This document shows positions 5,156-15,308 of a stretch of 20,115 bases of DNA, piece after piece (positions within the stretch are counted from its first letter, which is position 1; every line of letters starts with the position of its first letter). The position numbers and the translations under genes are program-made. The stretch is from a virus. The notes beneath the pieces were generated by a model that worked only from the letters and a program-made list of their open reading frames with translations, was not told the DNA's origin and ran no database searches. The stretch covers positions 1 through 20,115 of IMG/VR virus record IMGVR_UViG_3300031951_001530; one strand, 5' to 3'.

Positions 5156-5473
5156 GTGACGCCCTTCCCGACCGTCAAGACGGCGAGAGCCCTGGTCGAG
5201 GAGGGCGTCCTCCCCTGCTCCGAGGCGCAGGTGAGGGCGCTTGCCAAGCGGCACCAGATCGGCAGGATGCTTGGTCGGTCTTACGTCTTCACGGCGGACG
5301 ACATCCACCACCTGTTGGCCAGCCTGCCATGCCCCTCAAACTCGTCCGCCGGCCCAAGTCGCCGTACTGGTATCTGCGCGGGACCGTCCGTGGCATCAGC
5401 ATCACGGAAAGCACTGGCACTGGCGACCGCGCCCAGGCGGAAGACATCCGCGCCCTCCGCGAGGCGGAACTAG
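5156..5473 (+). CDS. Excisionase-like winged-helix protein
   Basis: A GTG at 5156 starts a 105-residue frame. The first 58 residues look like a MerR/excisionase-type DNA-binding domain: TVKTARALVEEGVLPCSEAQ for the recognition helices, then an RMLGRSYVFTADDI wing and a closing HHLLASL helix. Such small proteins bind near attP and steer the integrase towards excision. The remaining 47 residues are Ser/Arg/Ala-rich and are encoded by DNA that also encodes the integrase N-terminus in another frame (145-bp overlap), so that part may be an unstructured tail with no selected function. No ribosome-binding site precedes the GTG, so translation may depend on coupling with the upstream gene. Excisionase identity rests on the domain and its place before int. 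Confidence 0.6.
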   Translation: MTPFPTVKTARALVEEGVLPCSEAQVRALAKRHQIGRMLGRSYVFTADDIHHLLASLPCPSNSSAGPSRRTGICAGPSVASASRKALALATAPRRKTSAPSARRN

Positions 5474-6354
5474 TCCGCAGGTCCATCCACGGAGACCGGG
5501 CCACCCGCACCTTCGGGGAGGCCGCCCTCAGCTACATGGAGGCCGGCGGCGAGCGCCACCACCTCGCGCCGCTGATCCTAAGGTGGGGCGAGAGGCCCCT
5601 CTCTCAGATCGGCCAGGAGGAGATCGATCGCGCCGCCAGGAAGCTGAAGCCGAAGGCGAGCCCCTCCACTCTCAACCGATGCGTTTACACGCCTACAGCA
5701 GCCGTGCTGCACCACGCCGCCCGGCTGCAGTGGTGCGAGAAGCCGGTGATCGCCCGCCCCTCGCAGCCCAAGGGCCGCGTGCGGTGGGTGACGGTGGAGG
5801 AGGCCGAGAAGCTGATCGCCCACGCCGGCCACCTGCGGCCCCTGGTGATCTTCCTCCTGGCGACCGGCGCGCGGATCGGGGAGGCCCTGGTCGTCGATTG
5901 GCGGGACGTGGACCTGGAGCGGGGGCACGTCGTCTTCTTGGACACTAAGAACGGCACGGATCGAGGCGTCCCCCTGAACAGCCGCGCGATCGAGGCCCTG
6001 AAGGGCCTCCCCCACCGGCAGGGGGCCGTCTTCCGCGTCCACTATGGCGGCCTGCGCTGGGATGGCACGCGACGCCCCCTGGGGCCGGCCTACGCCAGCC
6101 GTGGAGGCCTCGGCGGCGGGCAGATCAAGGGTGGCTGGAAGGCCATGCTGAAGGCGGCCAAGATCACCGACTTCACCCCGCACGACTGCCGCCACACCTG
6201 GGCGACGTGGCACTATCAGGCGAACCGCGACCTGGGCGCGCTGATGAGCCTGGGAGGGTGGAAGACGCCGGCCATGGTCCTTCGATACGCCCACACGAAC
6301 ACCACCCAGCACGCGGCCAGCATGGAGGCCGCCTGGAGAAAAGCTGGAGAATAA
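5329..6354 (+). CDS. int: Tyrosine-recombinase phage integrase
   Basis: The 341-residue protein has the full tyrosine-recombinase active site: Arg182 (TGARIGEA), Lys207 (TKNGTDRGV), His285 and Arg288 (HDCRHTW), Trp311 in place of the second His, and the nucleophile Tyr320 (LRYAHTN). The N-terminal 60 residues form an arm-binding region with basic strands, followed by a SAM-like core-binding domain (about 60-145). The ATG at 5329 is chosen because the longer upstream reading is antisense-like and overlaps the excisionase and membrane-peptide genes. It should catalyse recombination between attP at 6411-6465 and a host tRNA-Thr gene. The first 145 bp overlap the excisionase frame, linking expression. 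It is the last gene of the operon. Confidence 0.93.
   Translation: MPLKLVRRPKSPYWYLRGTVRGISITESTGTGDRAQAEDIRALREAELVRRSIHGDRATRTFGEAALSYMEAGGERHHLAPLILRWGERPLSQIGQEEIDRAARKLKPKASPSTLNRCVYTPTAAVLHHAARLQWCEKPVIARPSQPKGRVRWVTVEEAEKLIAHAGHLRPLVIFLLATGARIGEALVVDWRDVDLERGHVVFLDTKNGTDRGVPLNSRAIEALKGLPHRQGAVFRVHYGGLRWDGTRRPLGPAYASRGGLGGGQIKGGWKAMLKAAKITDFTPHDCRHTWATWHYQANRDLGALMSLGGWKTPAMVLRYAHTNTTQHAASMEAAWRKAGE
6334..6352 (+). repeat. Arm-type direct repeat, left copy (integrase or Xis binding candidate)
   Basis: TGGAGAAAAGCTGGAGAAT at the 3' end of int matches the copy at 6554-6572 at 17 of 19 positions. The pair flanks the attP core at unequal distances, which is the usual arrangement of arm sites bound by the integrase N-terminal domain. 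Confidence 0.5.
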
Positions 6355-6356
6355 AC

Positions 6357-6397
6357 CCTGGGAAGAACACCTAAGGACCTATTTTCCCCCAGGTTTT
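6357..6397 (+). terminator. Weak candidate terminator after int
   Basis: CCTGGG (6357-6362) can pair with CCCAGG (6388-6393), or an 8-bp stem with a 2-base bulge can form using GGAA and TTCC, followed by TTTT at 6394-6397. The loop is long (about 25 bases), so strength is doubtful. Confidence 0.35.
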
Positions 6398-6410
6398 CGT
6401 GCGCCTCGAT

Positions 6411-6465
6411 TGTCCTTGGTAAGGCTGAGGTCGGCAGTTCAATCCTGCCCGGCGGCACCATTTTT
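6411..6465 (+). other. attP: attP core: 3' half of a tRNA-Thr(GGT) gene
   Basis: Positions 6416-6460 read as the 3' half of a tRNA: anticodon loop TTGGTAA (6416-6422, anticodon GGT for Thr), 3' anticodon stem GGCTG, variable loop AGGTC, T-stem GGCAG/CTGCC around TTCAATC (6433-6449), acceptor CGGCGGC (6450-6456), discriminator A and CCA (6458-6460), then TTTTT. Upstream of the anticodon loop the stem no longer pairs properly and no D-arm or 5' acceptor exists, so this is not an intact tRNA. The crossover should lie in or near the anticodon loop, and integration would rebuild the host tRNA. Phage-like genes on both sides identify it as attP rather than a prophage end. Confidence 0.8.
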
Positions 6466-6482
6466 CCCTTGAGTTTCAAGGG
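6466..6482. repeat. Perfect 7-bp inverted repeat beside attP
   Basis: CCCTTGA-GTT-TCAAGGG directly follows the T-run after the tRNA CCA. A T-run follows it on neither strand, so it is unlikely to be a terminator. It could be a binding site for integrase, Xis or a host factor. Confidence 0.4.
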
Positions 6483-6553
6483 TTTGGTAGTGAGCCTCAT
6501 CCCTGTCTCCACCCCCTCGGGGGTCGGAGGCGGGGGTCGAGAGGCTCGAAAGG

Positions 6554-6572
6554 TGGAGAAAAACTGGAGACT
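6554..6572 (+). repeat. Arm-type direct repeat, right copy
   Basis: TGGAGAAAAACTGGAGACT matches the left copy at 6334-6352 at 17 of 19 positions, in the same orientation, about 95 bases beyond the attP core. A second pair, ACCTAAGG at 6369-6376 and its reverse complement CCTTAGGT at 6603-6610, also flanks the core. Confidence 0.5.
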
Positions 6573-6634: not shown

Positions 6635-6898
6635 ATGGACGCGAATGAATACCGCAAAGTGATCGCCCACCTCGGCCTCTCCCAGGTCAAGAGCGGCGCT
6701 GCACTTGGAACCGACCCCCGCACAGCGCGACGCTGGGCGAAGGACGGCCCGCCCAGTTCTGTCGCCGTCGCCCTGACGGCCTTCGTTGTGATGCAGGACA
6801 ACGGCATGGAGAGGCCCTGGGATCACCCGGCCATCGTCGAGGCACGAAAAAAGCCCCCCGGCGCGAGCCAGGGGGCTTCCGAAGCTGAGAAGGCGTAG
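6635..6898 (+). CDS. Small HTH DNA-binding protein
   Basis: The 87-residue product has an N-terminal helix-turn-helix resembling small phage XRE-type or DNA-binding proteins: residues about 5-45 include HLGLSQVKSGAALGTDPRTA followed by RRWAKDGPPSS and a hydrophobic helix. The C-terminal 25 residues are low-complexity (KKPPGASQGASEAEKA), and their codons also form the terminator of the opposing late operon. AGGAA (6622-6626) lies eight bases before the ATG. It is alone between attP and the convergent holin gene, whose stop is three bases away. It could regulate lysogeny, int or late genes; no partner or target is visible. Confidence 0.75.
   Translation: MDANEYRKVIAHLGLSQVKSGAALGTDPRTARRWAKDGPPSSVAVALTAFVVMQDNGMERPWDHPAIVEARKKPPGASQGASEAEKA
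6847..6880 (-). terminator. Rho-independent terminator of the late/lysis operon
   Basis: Read on the minus strand, GAAGCCCCC, a 12-base loop and GGGGGCTT form an 8-bp GC-rich stem (6878-6871 with 6858-6851) followed by a T-run from the AAAAAA at 6847-6852. It lies about 25 bases beyond the holin stop. It is embedded in the last codons of the plus-strand HTH gene and works in one direction only, since no T-run follows on the plus strand. Confidence 0.8.
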
Positions 6899-6901
6899 GC
6901 C

Positions 6902-7093
6902 CTACAGCTTGGCCTTGACGCGACCGTAGATGGTGAGGGCCAAACCGGCGACGGTGCCGACGGCCTGAATGACCTCGGCCTGCGCGTCAGGCGACACGAT
7001 ACCGACCTTGGCCAGCGCGATGGGCGCGAGGCTCGAGACGGCCATCAACAGCGCGCCGTTGATCGTCTTGGACTTCCAGGGCTTCTTTCTCAT
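6902..7093 (-). CDS. Probable holin
   Basis: The 63-residue product has a basic N-terminus (MRKKPWKSK) and two hydrophobic segments, about residues 11-29 and 41-58, with a short polar loop. It ends in a basic KAKL tail. This is the size and topology of small class II holins, which open the inner membrane to release the endolysin. It is translationally coupled to the endolysin gene (ATGA overlap at 7090-7093) and is the last gene before the late terminator. A longer reading from 7252 is antisense-like and rejected. Function is inferred from topology and lysis-cassette position. Confidence 0.72.
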   Translation of the reverse strand: MRKKPWKSKTINGALLMAVSSLAPIALAKVGIVSPDAQAEVIQAVGTVAGLALTIYGRVKAKL

Positions 7094-7497
7094 TGCGCGG
7101 TCTCCTTTTTTTGCGCGGGGTACTGCTTCCAGGGAAGCTGAAAGTGGGGGCCGTCCTTGAGCCGCTTCCACGAGCCGCCCCACTCGATGGGGACCTTCTC
7201 GATGCGGGCGGCGTCGGCCATGACAGAGTGCAGGCGGGTGTAGAGGGGCCAATCCCAGCGCACCTCTCCGTCGAGGATCACCGCCAGATCGACGGCGTGC
7301 CCCGTCAGGTGGCGGCTGTTGAGGGTCTGCGACGCGCCCTGCGCGAACAGTTCCTGCTGCCGGCGCAGGGTCCTCAGGCCCTCGGTGACCGTGAAGTCGA
7401 AGGGCGAGTTGGAGATCGCCCGCTTGACGACGCGGACCAGATCGGGGTGGACGCCCTCCAGGCGTCTCAGGGAGCGCGCTCCGAGGGCGTAGGTCAC
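7090..7497 (-). CDS. M15-family peptidoglycan peptidase, endolysin
   Basis: A GTG start at 7497 overlaps the stop of the metallophosphoesterase gene as GTGA and gives 135 residues. The zinc site of the M15 peptidases is intact: SRHLTGHAVD supplies His63 and Asp70, and GPHFQLP supplies His118; IEWGGSW with D115 just before the last His matches the catalytic region. Members cut peptide bonds in peptidoglycan (L-Ala-D-Glu or D-Ala-D-Ala type). There is no signal peptide, so export depends on the holin encoded immediately downstream. A longer reading from 7818 runs through the neighbouring gene in another frame and is rejected. Family and lysis role are confident; bond specificity is not. Confidence 0.88.
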   Translation of the reverse strand: MTYALGARSLRRLEGVHPDLVRVVKRAISNSPFDFTVTEGLRTLRRQQELFAQGASQTLNSRHLTGHAVDLAVILDGEVRWDWPLYTRLHSVMADAARIEKVPIEWGGSWKRLKDGPHFQLPWKQYPAQKKETAQ

Positions 7498-8540
7498 ATC
7501 TGGCTCCTGAGGAAGTCGAGGTAGGCGCGGCCCGCCTCGGGGTCGTGGAAGACCTTGACCAGTTCGGGGTCGAGGTCTGAGCGGCGCGGGTCGATCACCA
7601 GGAAGACGGCGGGGCTGTTCGAGCGGTCGGAGAGGCCCAGGTCGTCGGCGTAGTCGTCGATCGACTTGAAGCTGGCCACCTGGACGCACCACGTCAGGCG
7701 CTTCGTCAGGGGGCACTTCTCGATGCTCTCCCCCGAGATGTGGGTGTGGCCGCCAAGCAACACCGTGTCGCGGACCCCCATGCGGGCGGCCCGCTTCATC
7801 CCGTGGACTTCGTTCCACATGGAGCGGCCCGGCCAGGAGTGGCGCAGGTTCATCGTCAACTCGCGACCGCCCTTGGTGCGGTAGGTGGCGCGGAGGGACG
7901 TCCCACGGTGCAGGATGCCTCGCTCCTCCATCATCCGCCCCAGGAGGTCGTTCGAGCCGCTCCAGGCGTCGTGGTTGCCGCCGACGCTGAGGTCGAGGTC
8001 GGGGGCCATCTGGTCGAGGTAGTGTTCGAAGAGTATCCAGCCCTCAGGGGCGGTCGTCTCGGCCTGGGCGTAGAGGAAGGCGAGCGGCTTCACCCAGTTG
8101 TCCAGCACGTCGCCCAGCAGCGCCCCGTGGACGTGCTTGTCGCGGTTCAGGTGGTTGGCCCAGTATTCGAACAGCGACAGGTCGGTGCCGGGGTTGTCGA
8201 GGTGCAGGTCCCCGAAGGCGATCAGGCCGAAGGGGCCATCGTCAGGCAGGTGGAGGATGTTGTGCCCGCTGCCGGGGCCGGCCTGGGAGACGCGGCGGAA
8301 CTCGCCCTTGCGGCGCGCGATGATCTCGTCTGCCGGCCTCCAGCGGGAGGGGTTGGGCAGGCCTCGCTCCTTGCCGATCAGGCCCTCTTTCCGCGCCGCC
8401 TCCAGGCGGTGCTGAATTGCGCGGCGGCTGAGGCCGAGGGTCTTGGCGGCCCCCGTGATCGAGCCCGCCTGGAGGAAGGCGTCGACAGCGGCGCGCATCG
8501 AGGGGTAGTTCATCTTGGTGGTGCCGGGCTTGCCCGCCAT
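7494..8540 (-). CDS. HTH-metallophosphoesterase fusion protein
   Basis: The 348-residue protein has two parts. Residues about 13-55 form a helix-turn-helix (SITGAAKTLGLSRRAIQHRL). Residues about 100-345 form a calcineurin-type metallophosphoesterase with every signature motif: GDLHLD (Asp111, His113), GDVLD (Asp144), GGNHD (Asn189, His190), His234 in LRHSW, and GGHTH (His265, His267). These would bind two metal ions and hydrolyse a phosphodiester or phosphomonoester. Its start overlaps the upstream membrane-protein stop as TAATG, and its stop overlaps the endolysin start, so it is locked into the lysis cassette. The HTH suggests a nucleic-acid substrate or DNA docking. The catalytic fold is certain; the substrate is unknown. 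Confidence 0.85.
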   Translation of the reverse strand: MAGKPGTTKMNYPSMRAAVDAFLQAGSITGAAKTLGLSRRAIQHRLEAARKEGLIGKERGLPNPSRWRPADEIIARRKGEFRRVSQAGPGSGHNILHLPDDGPFGLIAFGDLHLDNPGTDLSLFEYWANHLNRDKHVHGALLGDVLDNWVKPLAFLYAQAETTAPEGWILFEHYLDQMAPDLDLSVGGNHDAWSGSNDLLGRMMEERGILHRGTSLRATYRTKGGRELTMNLRHSWPGRSMWNEVHGMKRAARMGVRDTVLLGGHTHISGESIEKCPLTKRLTWCVQVASFKSIDDYADDLGLSDRSNSPAVFLVIDPRRSDLDPELVKVFHDPEAGRAYLDFLRSQM

Positions 8541-8827
8541 TACCGATCCCCCGCCACGCGCTGCTCGATCCGGTTGACGGTCTCCTGCAGGGCCTTTGTC
8601 CTCTCATCGACGCGGGCGACGGTCTCCGAGAGGTGGGCCGTGCCGGCCATCCTGGCCTCCACCTTGGCGATCGCGTCGGTGTTTTCCGTCACGCGCGCGT
8701 CGATCCTCGCCCCCCACATCAGGAGGGTCGCAGACTGCCCGACGAGGGCCAGGAAGAGGGTGATGACCCCCCACAAGGGGATTTTGAGGTCGATCCAAGA
8801 CGTGGTCCTGGGTTCGGCGTTCGCCAT
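8540..8827 (-). CDS. Membrane-anchored coiled-coil protein, lysis-accessory or spanin-like
   Basis: The 95-residue protein has a short polar N-terminus, a single membrane span at about residues 16-38 (LWGVITLFLALVGQSATLLM), and a long charged helix (about 40-93) with heptad character (RVTENTDAIAKVEARM, then RVDERTKALQETVNRIEQRV). N-terminal anchor plus periplasmic coiled coil is the plan of inner-membrane spanins. It is also the plan of some holin-accessory proteins. No overlapping lipoprotein gene is visible, so a classic two-gene spanin cannot be claimed. AGGAG lies about nine bases before the ATG, inside the 48-bp repeat at 8831-8878. It is the first gene of the coupled lysis cassette. Confidence 0.6.
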   Translation of the reverse strand: MANAEPRTTSWIDLKIPLWGVITLFLALVGQSATLLMWGARIDARVTENTDAIAKVEARMAGTAHLSETVARVDERTKALQETVNRIEQRVAGDR

Positions 8828-8830
8828 GGA

Positions 8831-8980
8831 CGGGCGCTCCTGCTGAAGGTTAGGGTGGCGGCTATGTTCGAACGCGAGATCATCGATGCCGAGTTCGAGG
8901 CTGTCAGACCGCCTCGCGCCGCTGTTCGCGACCGGGCGCTCCTGCTGAAGGTTAGGGTGGCGGCTATGTTCGAACGCGAG
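8831..8980. repeat. 48-bp perfect direct repeat (8831-8878 and 8933-8980) with interleaved second repeat
   Basis: The 48-bp segment starting CGGGCGCTCC and ending CGAACGCGAG occurs twice, exactly, with an offset of 102 bp (34 codons). A second, 36-bp segment (8898-8933 and 8978-9013) is also duplicated with three mismatches, so the order is A-spacer-B-A-B. The duplication contains the start of the plus-strand gene at 8864 and the ribosome-binding site of the minus-strand gene at 8827. Confidence 0.9.
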
Positions 8981-9079: not shown

Positions 9080-11172
9080 GGGCGGTTCTGCGTGCTGCCG
9101 GCGATCGGCGCGGTGGAGCGGCTGATGGCCCCCTGGATGCGCTGACCCGTCTGGAGGCCGTTCAGCAGGCGAGACATCTCGGCGTCGTCGAGGAGAGCCC
9201 CTCCCAGGATCGCGTTCCTTTTGGGGTCGGTGAGGATGCCGCCGCGACCCTGGAGGATGCGCGCAGTCACTCGGCCAGCCGCCGCGCGCGGTGAGGTGAC
9301 GTCGTCCATCAGGTCGCTCAGATCGTAGCCCTCGCCCTCCAGGCGCTGGCGCATGGCCTGACGCAGGTAGGTGGGGGAGCCGCCGGCGTAGCGGTTGTTG
9401 AGGTTGGCCTGCATGACGCGCTTCTCGGCGGCATCGAGGAACTCGACGAAGGACGCGTCGTCAGGGAAGGCCAGCCGCAGGCGCTGCTTGAAGTTCTCGT
9501 TCTTCAGGAGGTTCCGCAGCACGCGCAGATCGCCCGTGTCCATCACGGTGTTCAGAAGCTGCTCTGCGACGCCCTTGCGGTAGGCGGCCATCGCCCCCGG
9601 CCCCGCCTCGTCCAGTTCCCGGCGAACGAACTCAGCCGAGTTGTCGAGGCCGTTCTTCAGCACGTTGGAGCCGAGTTCATAGGCCCCCTCGATCTCCATG
9701 TCGGTGGCGTACTGCTTGAGGAAGTCGTCGTACTCCTTGAGGCCGCCGCGATCGGGCGTCCTGGCGTTTGTGCGGACAGCCCGCCCCAGGCTCTTCAGTG
9801 TCGGGCCGAGACCTGGAGTGACGGTGCTGCTCTTAAACGCGGCATCTGCAGCCTTGAGAAGGCTCTCACTGATGTCCTGCGCCTGACGCACGGTGATGGC
9901 GCGCGGCCCGAGGGCGTAGCCGGGCGTGTCGCCGAGGTCGTCCATCAGGCGCTGCAGGGCCACGCCGGAGTGGCGGACGGCCTCATCTTCCGAGGCGAGG
10001 GCGTTCTTGACGGCTTCGGCCATGGCGCTTCGGGCGCGCTCAGAGCGGAGGGCGGCGACGCTGTTCTCATCGAGCATGATGGGCCGGTCGCCGATGAGCC
10101 CCATGCTATCGTCGGCGGCCTTCCGGCGACCCTTCTGCATGGTCTCGAGGGTCTCCCAGTAGTCGCCGCGACCGCCGAGGCCCTGCGCCAGATCGGCTCG
10201 CAGGTCGGGCTGCTCGTTGGCCTTCACCTCCTCGGCGCGGGCGCGGACGCGAGCGCCGCCGGGGCCGCCGGACTGCACGAGGACGTCAGCCGTCGTCTGC
10301 ATGTTTGGCCCGCGATCGTACATGGCCGGGCCGCCGCCGGGGGCGTATCCGCCATCCAGGTCGTCGCGCCTGATCTCCTCGAGGGCCTTCGCGACGCGGT
10401 ACTCATCCTCGCTGAGGGGCTGCCTGTTTACACGCCTTGTCGACGCGCCGCCCGTCGCGCGGTCGAGTTGGGCCGCGAGATTGGGCATCGCCTCGGCCAT
10501 CCGGCCCATCGCGGGGATGGCGACGCGCTCAACGGCGCGAGCCATGGGCGGGAGGGTCTTTTCGAGGACGGGGACGCCGACGAAGCCGGCGGGCGCGCCC
10601 ATCAGCGCGCCGCCGACGAAGCCGCCCACGCGGTCGTTCTCGGCGTTGCCGGCCCCCGCCGCCCCGCCGTAGCCGCCCGCCACGAGGGCCGCCCGCTTCG
10701 CGCGGGACATCATGGTCGCCCCACCGCCGATGTAGCGACCAGCCATCTTGGAGCCGGGGCCGAAGACCGCGCCGAGGATGTTGGAGCCGGTGGAGAGCCA
10801 GGGGTGGTCTTGGCGGAACTGCTCGTCGCCCTCTTTGTTGGCGGCCAGGACCGCCGCCCGCGCCTCCTCCGGCGTGTAGGGGAGGGCCTCCTTGCCAACC
10901 AGCGAGCGGACCTTGTTGTTGAGGCCCGTCTCGACGCCAGCGCCCCAGGCGTCGAGGTCGTCTGCCCAGTTGGCCCAGGCTCCCGCGTTGAGGGCGCGGA
11001 TGACCGCCGGCGTGTTCCGCACCCGAGTGCGGGCGTCCTTCTGCGCGGCGACGCGGCCCGCGCTGCCGCGATCGGCCCACATCTTCTCCAGGCCGGCCCT
11101 CGCCTCCTCGGGCGACGCGGCCCTGGCGCGGTGGATTTGGCCGTCAGGCCCCTTGAAGCGATAGACCTCCAT
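9076..11172 (-). CDS. Large virion protein, probable DNA-ejection protein
   Basis: The 698-residue protein begins MEVYRFKGPDGQIHRARAAS, a short beta hairpin seen at the start of many phage structural proteins. It then has an Ala/Gly-rich, membrane-like segment at about residues 130-205 (SNILGAVFGPGSKMAGRYI and VGGFVGGALMGAPAGFVGV). The remaining 450 residues are mainly charged helix. Large, helical, Gly-rich proteins near the tail genes of podoviruses are often packaged and ejected with DNA to form a channel across the envelope. It is coupled to the upstream gene by a TAATG overlap. I do not recognise a named family, so the ejection role is inference from composition, size and location. Confidence 0.6.
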   Translation of the reverse strand: MEVYRFKGPDGQIHRARAASPEEARAGLEKMWADRGSAGRVAAQKDARTRVRNTPAVIRALNAGAWANWADDLDAWGAGVETGLNNKVRSLVGKEALPYTPEEARAAVLAANKEGDEQFRQDHPWLSTGSNILGAVFGPGSKMAGRYIGGGATMMSRAKRAALVAGGYGGAAGAGNAENDRVGGFVGGALMGAPAGFVGVPVLEKTLPPMARAVERVAIPAMGRMAEAMPNLAAQLDRATGGASTRRVNRQPLSEDEYRVAKALEEIRRDDLDGGYAPGGGPAMYDRGPNMQTTADVLVQSGGPGGARVRARAEEVKANEQPDLRADLAQGLGGRGDYWETLETMQKGRRKAADDSMGLIGDRPIMLDENSVAALRSERARSAMAEAVKNALASEDEAVRHSGVALQRLMDDLGDTPGYALGPRAITVRQAQDISESLLKAADAAFKSSTVTPGLGPTLKSLGRAVRTNARTPDRGGLKEYDDFLKQYATDMEIEGAYELGSNVLKNGLDNSAEFVRRELDEAGPGAMAAYRKGVAEQLLNTVMDTGDLRVLRNLLKNENFKQRLRLAFPDDASFVEFLDAAEKRVMQANLNNRYAGGSPTYLRQAMRQRLEGEGYDLSDLMDDVTSPRAAAGRVTARILQGRGGILTDPKRNAILGGALLDDAEMSRLLNGLQTGQRIQGAISRSTAPIAGSTQNRP

Positions 11173-13517: not shown

Positions 13518-15308
13518 CTACCGCTTACCAAGCAGTGTGTAGTCGAACTGAGGGAGGCCCAGGCGGCCCCTCGCCGGGCTTGAGGACCCAGAGAACTTGA
13601 TGCGGAAAAGCCAGCCCGTCGCCATGAAGTCGACCTGATCGTCCGTCGAGGCGAACGTGTACGGGCCGTAGGTGGTCGGGGGCTGGTTGGGCCGGATGCG
13701 TGTAAACAGGGTCAAGGCCCAGGGGCCGACCTGATCCTTGACGTCTGGGAGCAGGCCCCTGATCAGGGACGTGCGCTCGGGATCAAAGAACATCTCGCCG
13801 CTTTCGATGCTCCACGCAAGAGGGGAACCGTCTGCGCTGCGCCCCCGCTCGTGCCAGTAGATGTTGCCGCCGGCTGTCGTCCCGATGGGCGTGTCAGATG
13901 GGCCGCTGTCGACCATGGCCGTTCTGGCCATGACGCCCGAATACCACCTCAGGTCTGAGATGCTCATCGCGAGGTAGCGGCTGTTCTCAAAGCCGTCTCT
14001 GCCGTCGGGGTAGTCGAAGCGCACCTCGTTGAAGTTCGAGTTGATCGAGGCGACGATCTTGTCGAGTTGCGACGGCGAGATGTTGTCGATCGCGTCCTGG
14101 GAGATGGGGCACTCGATCACCTCTGGCTGACCGCCGGGGGAGAAGGTGAGGAACTGCCCGTCAGGAGCCCACCAGAAGGCGCGCTGGCCCTTCACGGCGA
14201 CTGCGTTGGGGCCGGCGGCTCCGCAGTTCTCACCGACCCGCGTAAAGCGCCAGGGGGCGGCGAGGTTGCCCGTGAAGTCGGCGAAGAAGAGGTCCTTCGT
14301 CGTCCAGATCAGGATGTAGGGGCCGAGGTTGCGGCCCGTGACGATCTCCCCCCCGCCGGGCAGGATGTACTCCCTCGACGTGCTGTCGCTCGGGGTGAGG
14401 GTCGTCCACTCGTTGACGCGACGGATGCCGCTGTAGCGGATGCAGAGGGGGTTGTAGACGCCGCTCACCTCCTCATTGCAGCCGAGGGCGAAGATTTGGT
14501 CGGTGTTCGAGACCACCATGGCCCGCACGCGGGCGGGGGCCTCCCTGATCGGCGCGGCGGGCGTCCCCGTGACGTTCTGCCAGAGGTGGATGGTCCCAGC
14601 CCTGGGCGAGGCCACCATCTGCCCACCCCAGGCGGCGATAGACCACGTCCTGGGCCAGTAGTCGGAGGTGGAGGGCGAGCCGTAGGTCCCCACGTCCCAC
14701 GCGCCCGTGCCGAAGCCTGCGCCGCCTGTGCCGTCGATCGCGCCGTCGGCGAAGGCCTTGTTGGGCTTCGCCAGGACAGCCGCGCCGCCGCCCGTGGTCG
14801 TCGCGTTGGCGGAAGAGCCGGCGGTGAAACTCCAGGTGTTCGTCGTGACCGCCGTCACCGTCCAGGTGCCGTTGATCGTCACGGTGGCGACTGCCGTCGC
14901 GCCAGAGATCGTGACGCTGTCTCCGACGAGGTGCGGATGGCCGGCCTGGGTGACGACGACGGTCGTCAGGGTGTTCGTCGTCGCGATGGGGTTGTTGCCG
15001 AGGGTCTGCTCGGGGAGGGCCAGGGTCGGCGTGATGTTGAACAGCGAGCCACCCACCCACACCTGCAGCCTCGAGTGCGTCCCGAAGGCGATGTTGAGGG
15101 ACGGCGCGGCGAGGCGATCCGTCCACTGGAAGATGTTGCGGCAGACGCCCGTCAGCAGGCTGTCCGTCAGGCTCTCCCAGCCGCCGATGATCTCCGGCCT
15201 GCCCTCCACGAAGCGCACGTTGGACCCGGTCGCCCAGCGCCCCTTGCTCGCGAGGCGGCTGTCGTCGGAGAACATGCCGGGCGGGAGGTCAAGGGACTGT
15301 CGGGTCAT
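13518..15308 (-). CDS. P22 gp10-like tail hub / packaged-DNA stabilisation protein
   Basis: The 596-residue protein starts with the pattern SLDLPPGMFSDDS...GRWATGSNVRFVEGRPEIIGGW, typical of gp10-like hub proteins. Repeated beta-strand blocks with WxxxDxxF/W patterns follow through residues 180-590, consistent with a beta-propeller (RTWSIAAWGGQMVA, RAFWWAPDGQFLTF). In P22-like phages this protein seals the portal after packaging and forms part of the tail hub. Residues about 100-170 are a Thr/Val/Gly-rich insert (HLVGDSVTISGATAVATVTI) that looks like an extra immunoglobulin-like or host-contact module. It is coupled to the preceding 69-residue gene (ATGA). Family confidence is moderate to good; the insert's function is unknown. 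Confidence 0.75.
   Translation of the reverse strand: MTRQSLDLPPGMFSDDSRLASKGRWATGSNVRFVEGRPEIIGGWESLTDSLLTGVCRNIFQWTDRLAAPSLNIAFGTHSRLQVWVGGSLFNITPTLALPEQTLGNNPIATTNTLTTVVVTQAGHPHLVGDSVTISGATAVATVTINGTWTVTAVTTNTWSFTAGSSANATTTGGGAAVLAKPNKAFADGAIDGTGGAGFGTGAWDVGTYGSPSTSDYWPRTWSIAAWGGQMVASPRAGTIHLWQNVTGTPAAPIREAPARVRAMVVSNTDQIFALGCNEEVSGVYNPLCIRYSGIRRVNEWTTLTPSDSTSREYILPGGGEIVTGRNLGPYILIWTTKDLFFADFTGNLAAPWRFTRVGENCGAAGPNAVAVKGQRAFWWAPDGQFLTFSPGGQPEVIECPISQDAIDNISPSQLDKIVASINSNFNEVRFDYPDGRDGFENSRYLAMSISDLRWYSGVMARTAMVDSGPSDTPIGTTAGGNIYWHERGRSADGSPLAWSIESGEMFFDPERTSLIRGLLPDVKDQVGPWALTLFTRIRPNQPPTTYGPYTFASTDDQVDFMATGWLFRIKFSGSSSPARGRLGLPQFDYTLLGKR

Follow-up and report, generated by a model that had tools for sequence, protein, structure and literature searches.

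Why would the last part of a tRNA gene, without its beginning, lie directly behind an integrase gene in a metagenomic viral contig and be followed by further phage genes? The contig, hereafter the window, is a 20,115-bp IMG/VR record classed as linear, and the original prediction was that it carries, at 6411-6465, a phage attachment site (attP) in the 3' half of tRNA-Thr(GGT). I consider it highly probable that positions 6413-6460 are the attP core of a temperate P22-like podovirus of the Caulobacteraceae, whose arm-bound integrase would recombine at tRNA-Thr(GGT). Four lines of evidence carry this reading: sequence identity, the architecture of the arms, relatives whose integrated copies show both types of junction, and a relative found in both states.

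The core itself (6413..6460, plus strand; TCCTTGGTAAGGCTGAGGTCGGCAGTTCAATCCTGCCCGGCGGCACCA) spans tRNA-Thr(GGT) from its anticodon stem through CCA and is identical at 48/48 positions to this 3' part of complete tRNA-Thr(GGT) genes (L073, L080, L081, L083, L086, L087 and others), with the match reaching 49 in some genes by way of the next T after 6460; judged from the sequence, an exact tRNA match of 48 bases cannot be put down to chance. The predicted 45-bp stretch, running from the anticodon loop as far as CCA, is real (6416-6460); only the interval drawn around it was a little too generous at either end. Eight other contigs, in the initial comparison, had a complete tRNA-Thr(GGT) matching the core (six exactly, two with two differences), and the core is also matched in the tRNA-Thr(GGT) of many bacterial genomes. 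ARAGORN finds no complete tRNA in the window, so a full tRNA gene inside it was rejected, and the same program recognizes a complete tRNA-Thr(GGT) once the 5' half from relatives is joined to the window from 6413 onward. The exact 47-mer 6414-6460 occurs in only 1 of 385 genomes drawn across the class; this one, G004, is a Phenylobacterium genome, and its family is therefore the Caulobacteraceae, in which 69 of the 199 genomes examined carry the same 47-mer. The proposal of an alphaproteobacterial host stands, and the host is now narrowed to this family.

Just past CCA there is a hairpin (CCCTTGAGTTTCAAGGG; 6466..6482, plus strand; -13.6 kcal/mol for the fold of 6461-6520), a possible terminator for the restored tRNA, and many relatives also have hairpins after CCA. 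Antisense to the tRNA segment runs a 98-aa open reading frame (6216-6512, minus strand) containing 'VPPGRIELPTSALPRT', which is probably spurious, like similar mis-annotated frames.

The gene immediately before the core encodes a tyrosine integrase of 341 aa (5329..6354, plus strand; PF00589 E 4.7e-23; PHROG integrase 5e-48) that is intact, as had been claimed, and possesses its catalytic residues, with R182, K207, H285, R288, W311 and Y320 invariant in 20 relatives. The integrase start is overlapped by the gene for an excisionase-like HTH protein (5156..5473, plus strand; phrog_1840 excisionase E 6.9e-5, with an HTH_17 match of 4e-4 that is below the cut-off). On the right of the core, where an HTH gene and lysis genes had been read from the letters, both are present: a small HTH regulator-like protein (6635..6898, plus strand; weak match to phrog_4779, E 0.008), a probable holin-like small membrane protein (6902..7093, minus strand), proposed from its sequence and its place beside the endolysin and with a profile match only to a group of unknown function, and the endolysin itself, of the peptidase M15 type (7090..7500, minus strand; phrog_465 endolysin 2.4e-60; PF13539 3e-11). 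Farther to the right, a head-completion or stabilization protein (13518..15308, minus strand; phrog_3287 1.7e-45) serves as the marker of the late region.

The strongest test of the attP reading is the integrase-arm motif. A 17-bp repeat, TGGAGAAAA(G/A)CTGGAGA, flanks the core on either side, as TGGAGAAAAGCTGGAGA in the P arm (6334..6350, plus strand, within the end of the integrase gene) and as TGGAGAAAAACTGGAGA in the P' arm (6554..6570, plus strand, beginning about 94 bp past CCA); the two copies agree at 16 of 17 positions, and the best 20-mer match from arm to arm is 17/20, a value reached in 0 of 200 dinucleotide shuffles. Both repeats are putative binding sites of the integrase. Because an earlier arm test by plain word matching had given a clear outcome in some relatives only, the motif was tested as a spaced motif with controls, namely as two GGRGA units 11 bp apart; this motif was picked after inspecting these arms, and the 28 control sites played no part in the choice. 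Integrated relatives have it on a single side of each junction: next to the integrase at attR, at -77 to -82 relative to the core, and downstream of the intact tRNA at attL, at +85 to +96 counted from CCA. Both arms occur together only in the window (-81, +94) and in three viral contigs, L011 (-81, +94), L012 (-82, +85) and L016 (-80, +95), and the integrase-less host copies of tRNA-Thr have the motif at either position in 0/28 cases. The motif is typical of the closer relatives, not universal; L003, L020, L084, L105 and some other distant relatives have none. The arrangement bears out the attP claim, with repeats on both sides of the core here and on one side per junction in integrated copies, and the window does not have the form of a prophage end (attL or attR), in which host DNA lies on one side of the core: it has both arms, phage genes on both flanks and no tRNA 5' half.

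How, then, would the integrated form look? Scanning with the integrase alignment recovered relatives from the Caulobacteraceae, Hyphomicrobiales and Acetobacteraceae, among others, and both ends are visible in seven elements (L073, L087, L088, L090, L091, L101 and L105), each of which has an intact tRNA-Thr(GGT) at its start and, at its end, the integrase, a displaced half-tRNA and then host DNA; on comparison, this order is the split form of the order in the window. Bacterial tRNA-Thr(GGT) genes with an adjacent related prophage, which the original prediction had proposed as a check, were found in the Caulobacteraceae with the 3' part shared at 48/48 positions, and the predicted target was upheld by the displaced half beside related integrases and the intact tRNA-Thr at the other element end. 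One element was caught, by its alignment, both as attP and as integrated: L016 has the attP form and L017 the integrated one; they share 5,058 bp at 99.98% identity and separate 2 bp past CCA, where L016 continues to the P' arm and L017 into other DNA, with no arm motif in the 81 bp available in L017 beyond the fragment.

The position of the exchange can be narrowed with L088 (Brevundimonas bullata), in which the attL half has the T arm GGCAG..CTGCC, carried in by the element (98% identical to L073), and the attR half has the T arm GTGGG..CCCCC, a form also found at L089-L091. The two halves agree at the 5' end only over TCCTTGGTAAGGCTGAGGTCG (21 bp) and then differ in the T arm, and the exchange must therefore fall within 6413..6433 of the window (plus strand), an interval that includes the anticodon loop TTGGTAA (6416-6422). 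From what is established for such integrases (PMC8371274), the overlap region probably corresponds to the 7-bp anticodon loop, and a crossover across this loop (6416-6422) is the most likely course, with exact cut positions that I infer. In B. bullata, the tRNA-Thr at L088:796-870 has its 3' half swapped for the element version, and the original half is displaced at 11085-11133. As the T arm may differ in this way between element and host, the exact match leaves Brevundimonas possible as a host of the window phage.

Taken together as a mechanism, the tyrosine integrase would bind the flanking arms at 6334-6350 and 6554-6570, and the core would be recombined by this neighbouring enzyme with the identical 3' part of the host tRNA-Thr(GGT), strand exchange being predicted. 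After integration, attL would combine the host 5' half with the phage 3' half into an intact tRNA with the late genes behind it, and attR would consist of the integrase followed by the displaced host half; since the final 48 bases of the tRNA gene are duplicated in the phage, insertion would leave a working tRNA.

The claim of phage DNA on both sides holds for the right flank as well, as, right of 6461, the window is collinear with the phage DNA that lies behind tRNA-Thr in integrated and resident relatives, including those in host genomes, and homologs of the stabilization protein are collinear behind tRNA-Thr in both. G203, a contig 99.8% identical to the window over 11.1 kb, adds 13.2 kb on the right, in which TerL-like, P22 portal and P22 coat genes were recognised but no host genes, so the P22-type portal and coat are found in G203, outside the window itself; a second near-identical contig (99.9%) adds 988 bp on the left. 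These near-identical contigs end at 6166 and begin at 8792, and the junction is crossed by the window alone. At 8792-8980, upstream of an Rz-like gene, the window has a repeated stretch where G203 breaks and realigns. The window record has no end repeats or overlap to close the genome, and together with G203 it amounts to 33 kb; the genome measures at least 34 kb, of which the linear contig covers 20 kb, and the molecule would be circular or circularly permuted. The layout of G209, a 40.7-kb phage, fits one permuted genome as expected: integrase, attP and then a minus-strand lipoprotein gene lie together, with the late genes at the opposite end. Four viral contigs have the same late genes straight after an intact tRNA-Thr, and they may be either integrated phages or resident clusters, because resident clusters look alike at that end; no complete integrated relative was found that combines, on one contig, the window's integrase type with its P22-like late region.

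Among the other explanations, the best survivor, although improbable, is a junction of tandem prophages, an alternative that the original prediction had also allowed beside a free or circular genome, in which the integrase would come from one prophage and the right side from a second in the same tRNA, with P-core-P' lying inside a chromosome. Comparable tandem junctions do occur at tRNA-Thr, as in L092 (Phenylobacterium, L092:5704-11117), where a tRNA, a 5.3-kb integrase element, a half-tRNA and P22-like late genes follow one another, and in G080 (C1:2086686-2086731) and G173 (C45:186928-186969) a displaced half separates the tRNA from the late genes; moreover, each flank of the window is backed by a contig of its own. 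However, the half in L092 has no P' arm motif on its right, whereas the window has one at the standard distance, no host DNA or tRNA 5' half is present in the window or in the 33 kb with G203, and the same integrase-attP layout exists within a single phage, G209. An assembly artefact, with attL and attR reads of an integrated prophage joined through the shared 48 bp, has a smaller probability again: the shared core is just what a short k-mer graph would collapse and a second contig across it is absent, but the same two-armed form recurs in three other contigs, L016 and L017 give the attP and integrated forms of one element, and an assembler would presumably more often break at such a repeat. 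Scarcely credible is the last reading, that the right side is a resident integrase-less P22-like cluster and 6461 onward therefore host DNA, since such clusters do lie behind tRNA-Thr(GGT) in many Caulobacteraceae with the same gene order, but have an intact tRNA ahead and the P' arm motif in 0/7, share only about 30-69% protein identity with the window phage and in G188 are followed by host genes (e.g., an Mnh-type antiporter operon, in my reading of the sequence) where G203 continues with phage-like genes, and the arm test already contradicts it.

The resident cluster nevertheless forms a subject of its own beside the attP of the window phage. About 48 of 390 Caulobacteraceae genomes encode a protein closely homologous to the stabilization protein (roughly E <= 1e-90; loci L216-L245). 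By my count, 32 of these 48 have the gene no more than about 10 kb behind tRNA-Thr(GGT), with the same relative orientation; the other 16 comprise 2 beside a displaced half, 2 at 47 kb or more, 11 on another contig and 1 without a tRNA match, and the window's integrase type is found in none of the 48. The seven stretches inspected (five of 60 kb, one of 40 kb and one of 15 kb; L246-L263, from G188, G109, G090, G099, G032, G013 and G085) contain neither a second full half-tRNA nor a related integrase, and a 25-bp tRNA fragment between tRNA and cluster in G099 is the sole exception in the search for a downstream half within 40-60 kb. The cluster in G188 retains endolysin, stabilization, coat, scaffold, portal and TerL-like genes, and most of the closest pairs show dN/dS values of roughly 0.1-0.2 for the stabilization gene, giving the picture of a cluster without attR and under purifying selection. 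It looks like a kept, domesticated cluster and is a candidate for a domesticated or gene-transfer-agent-like element. In L092, G080 and G173, the P22-like cluster is separated from tRNA-Thr by tandem or nested insertions, with a half-tRNA left in between. A tentative thought, more doubtful than not, is that the window phage is a still-mobile relative of this vertically kept cluster at the same tRNA-Thr gene; if the cluster makes particles, they would be those of a podoviral-type gene transfer agent, and attP would mark the capture site of its ancestor. A search of the literature on Caulobacteraceae prophages at tRNA-Thr and on P22-type gene transfer agents found no paper on the cluster.

What is gained is a host family and a precise chromosomal site for a metagenomic phage, together with a compact natural set of attP, attL and attR that gives the core, arm sites and crossover interval for one integrase family, common to phages and capsid-encoding satellites, and a lead to an integrase-less phage cluster, so far unexplained, beside this tRNA gene.

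An attP in a tRNA is a known kind of system, and this example is an ordinary but well supported one; tRNA-targeting attP sites of tyrosine integrases were reportedly described by Reiter in 1989, Campbell in 1992 and Williams in 2002. The window has no DNA match in the phage collection and no close phages in GenBank, and the closest annotated phages share less than 60% protein identity in the integrase and 23-31% in the stabilization protein. Islander holds 2083 islands with an anticodon-centred attP (class A; PMC4383910), and, like these, the window phage carries the tRNA 3' part from anticodon to CCA with the integrase adjacent and, in relatives, a displaced fragment at the far end; no mechanistic difference was found, and what differs is that the integrase family is here common to capsid-encoding satellites and that the arm spacing is given for a set of relatives. 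The likeness to P22-like podoviruses (portal PF16510, coat PF11651) lies in the portal, coat, scaffold and stabilization genes of G203 and relatives. Small integrated elements of about 10.1-10.5 kb (L073, L087, L088 and L090) have the integrase family and tRNA site of the window phage; L073 encodes an AAA/primase-like protein, HNH, terminase, HK97 capsid, S78 protease, portal, connector, xis and integrase, has no tail genes and, by this gene content, resembles capsid-forming satellites. These 10-kb Caulobacteraceae integrase elements, which resemble capsid-forming PICIs, share with the window phage the integrase family (about 66% identity), the tRNA and the arm motif; they carry capsid (HK97-type), portal, protease and terminase genes without tail genes, whereas the window phage is P22-like and possesses tail, lysis and recombination genes.
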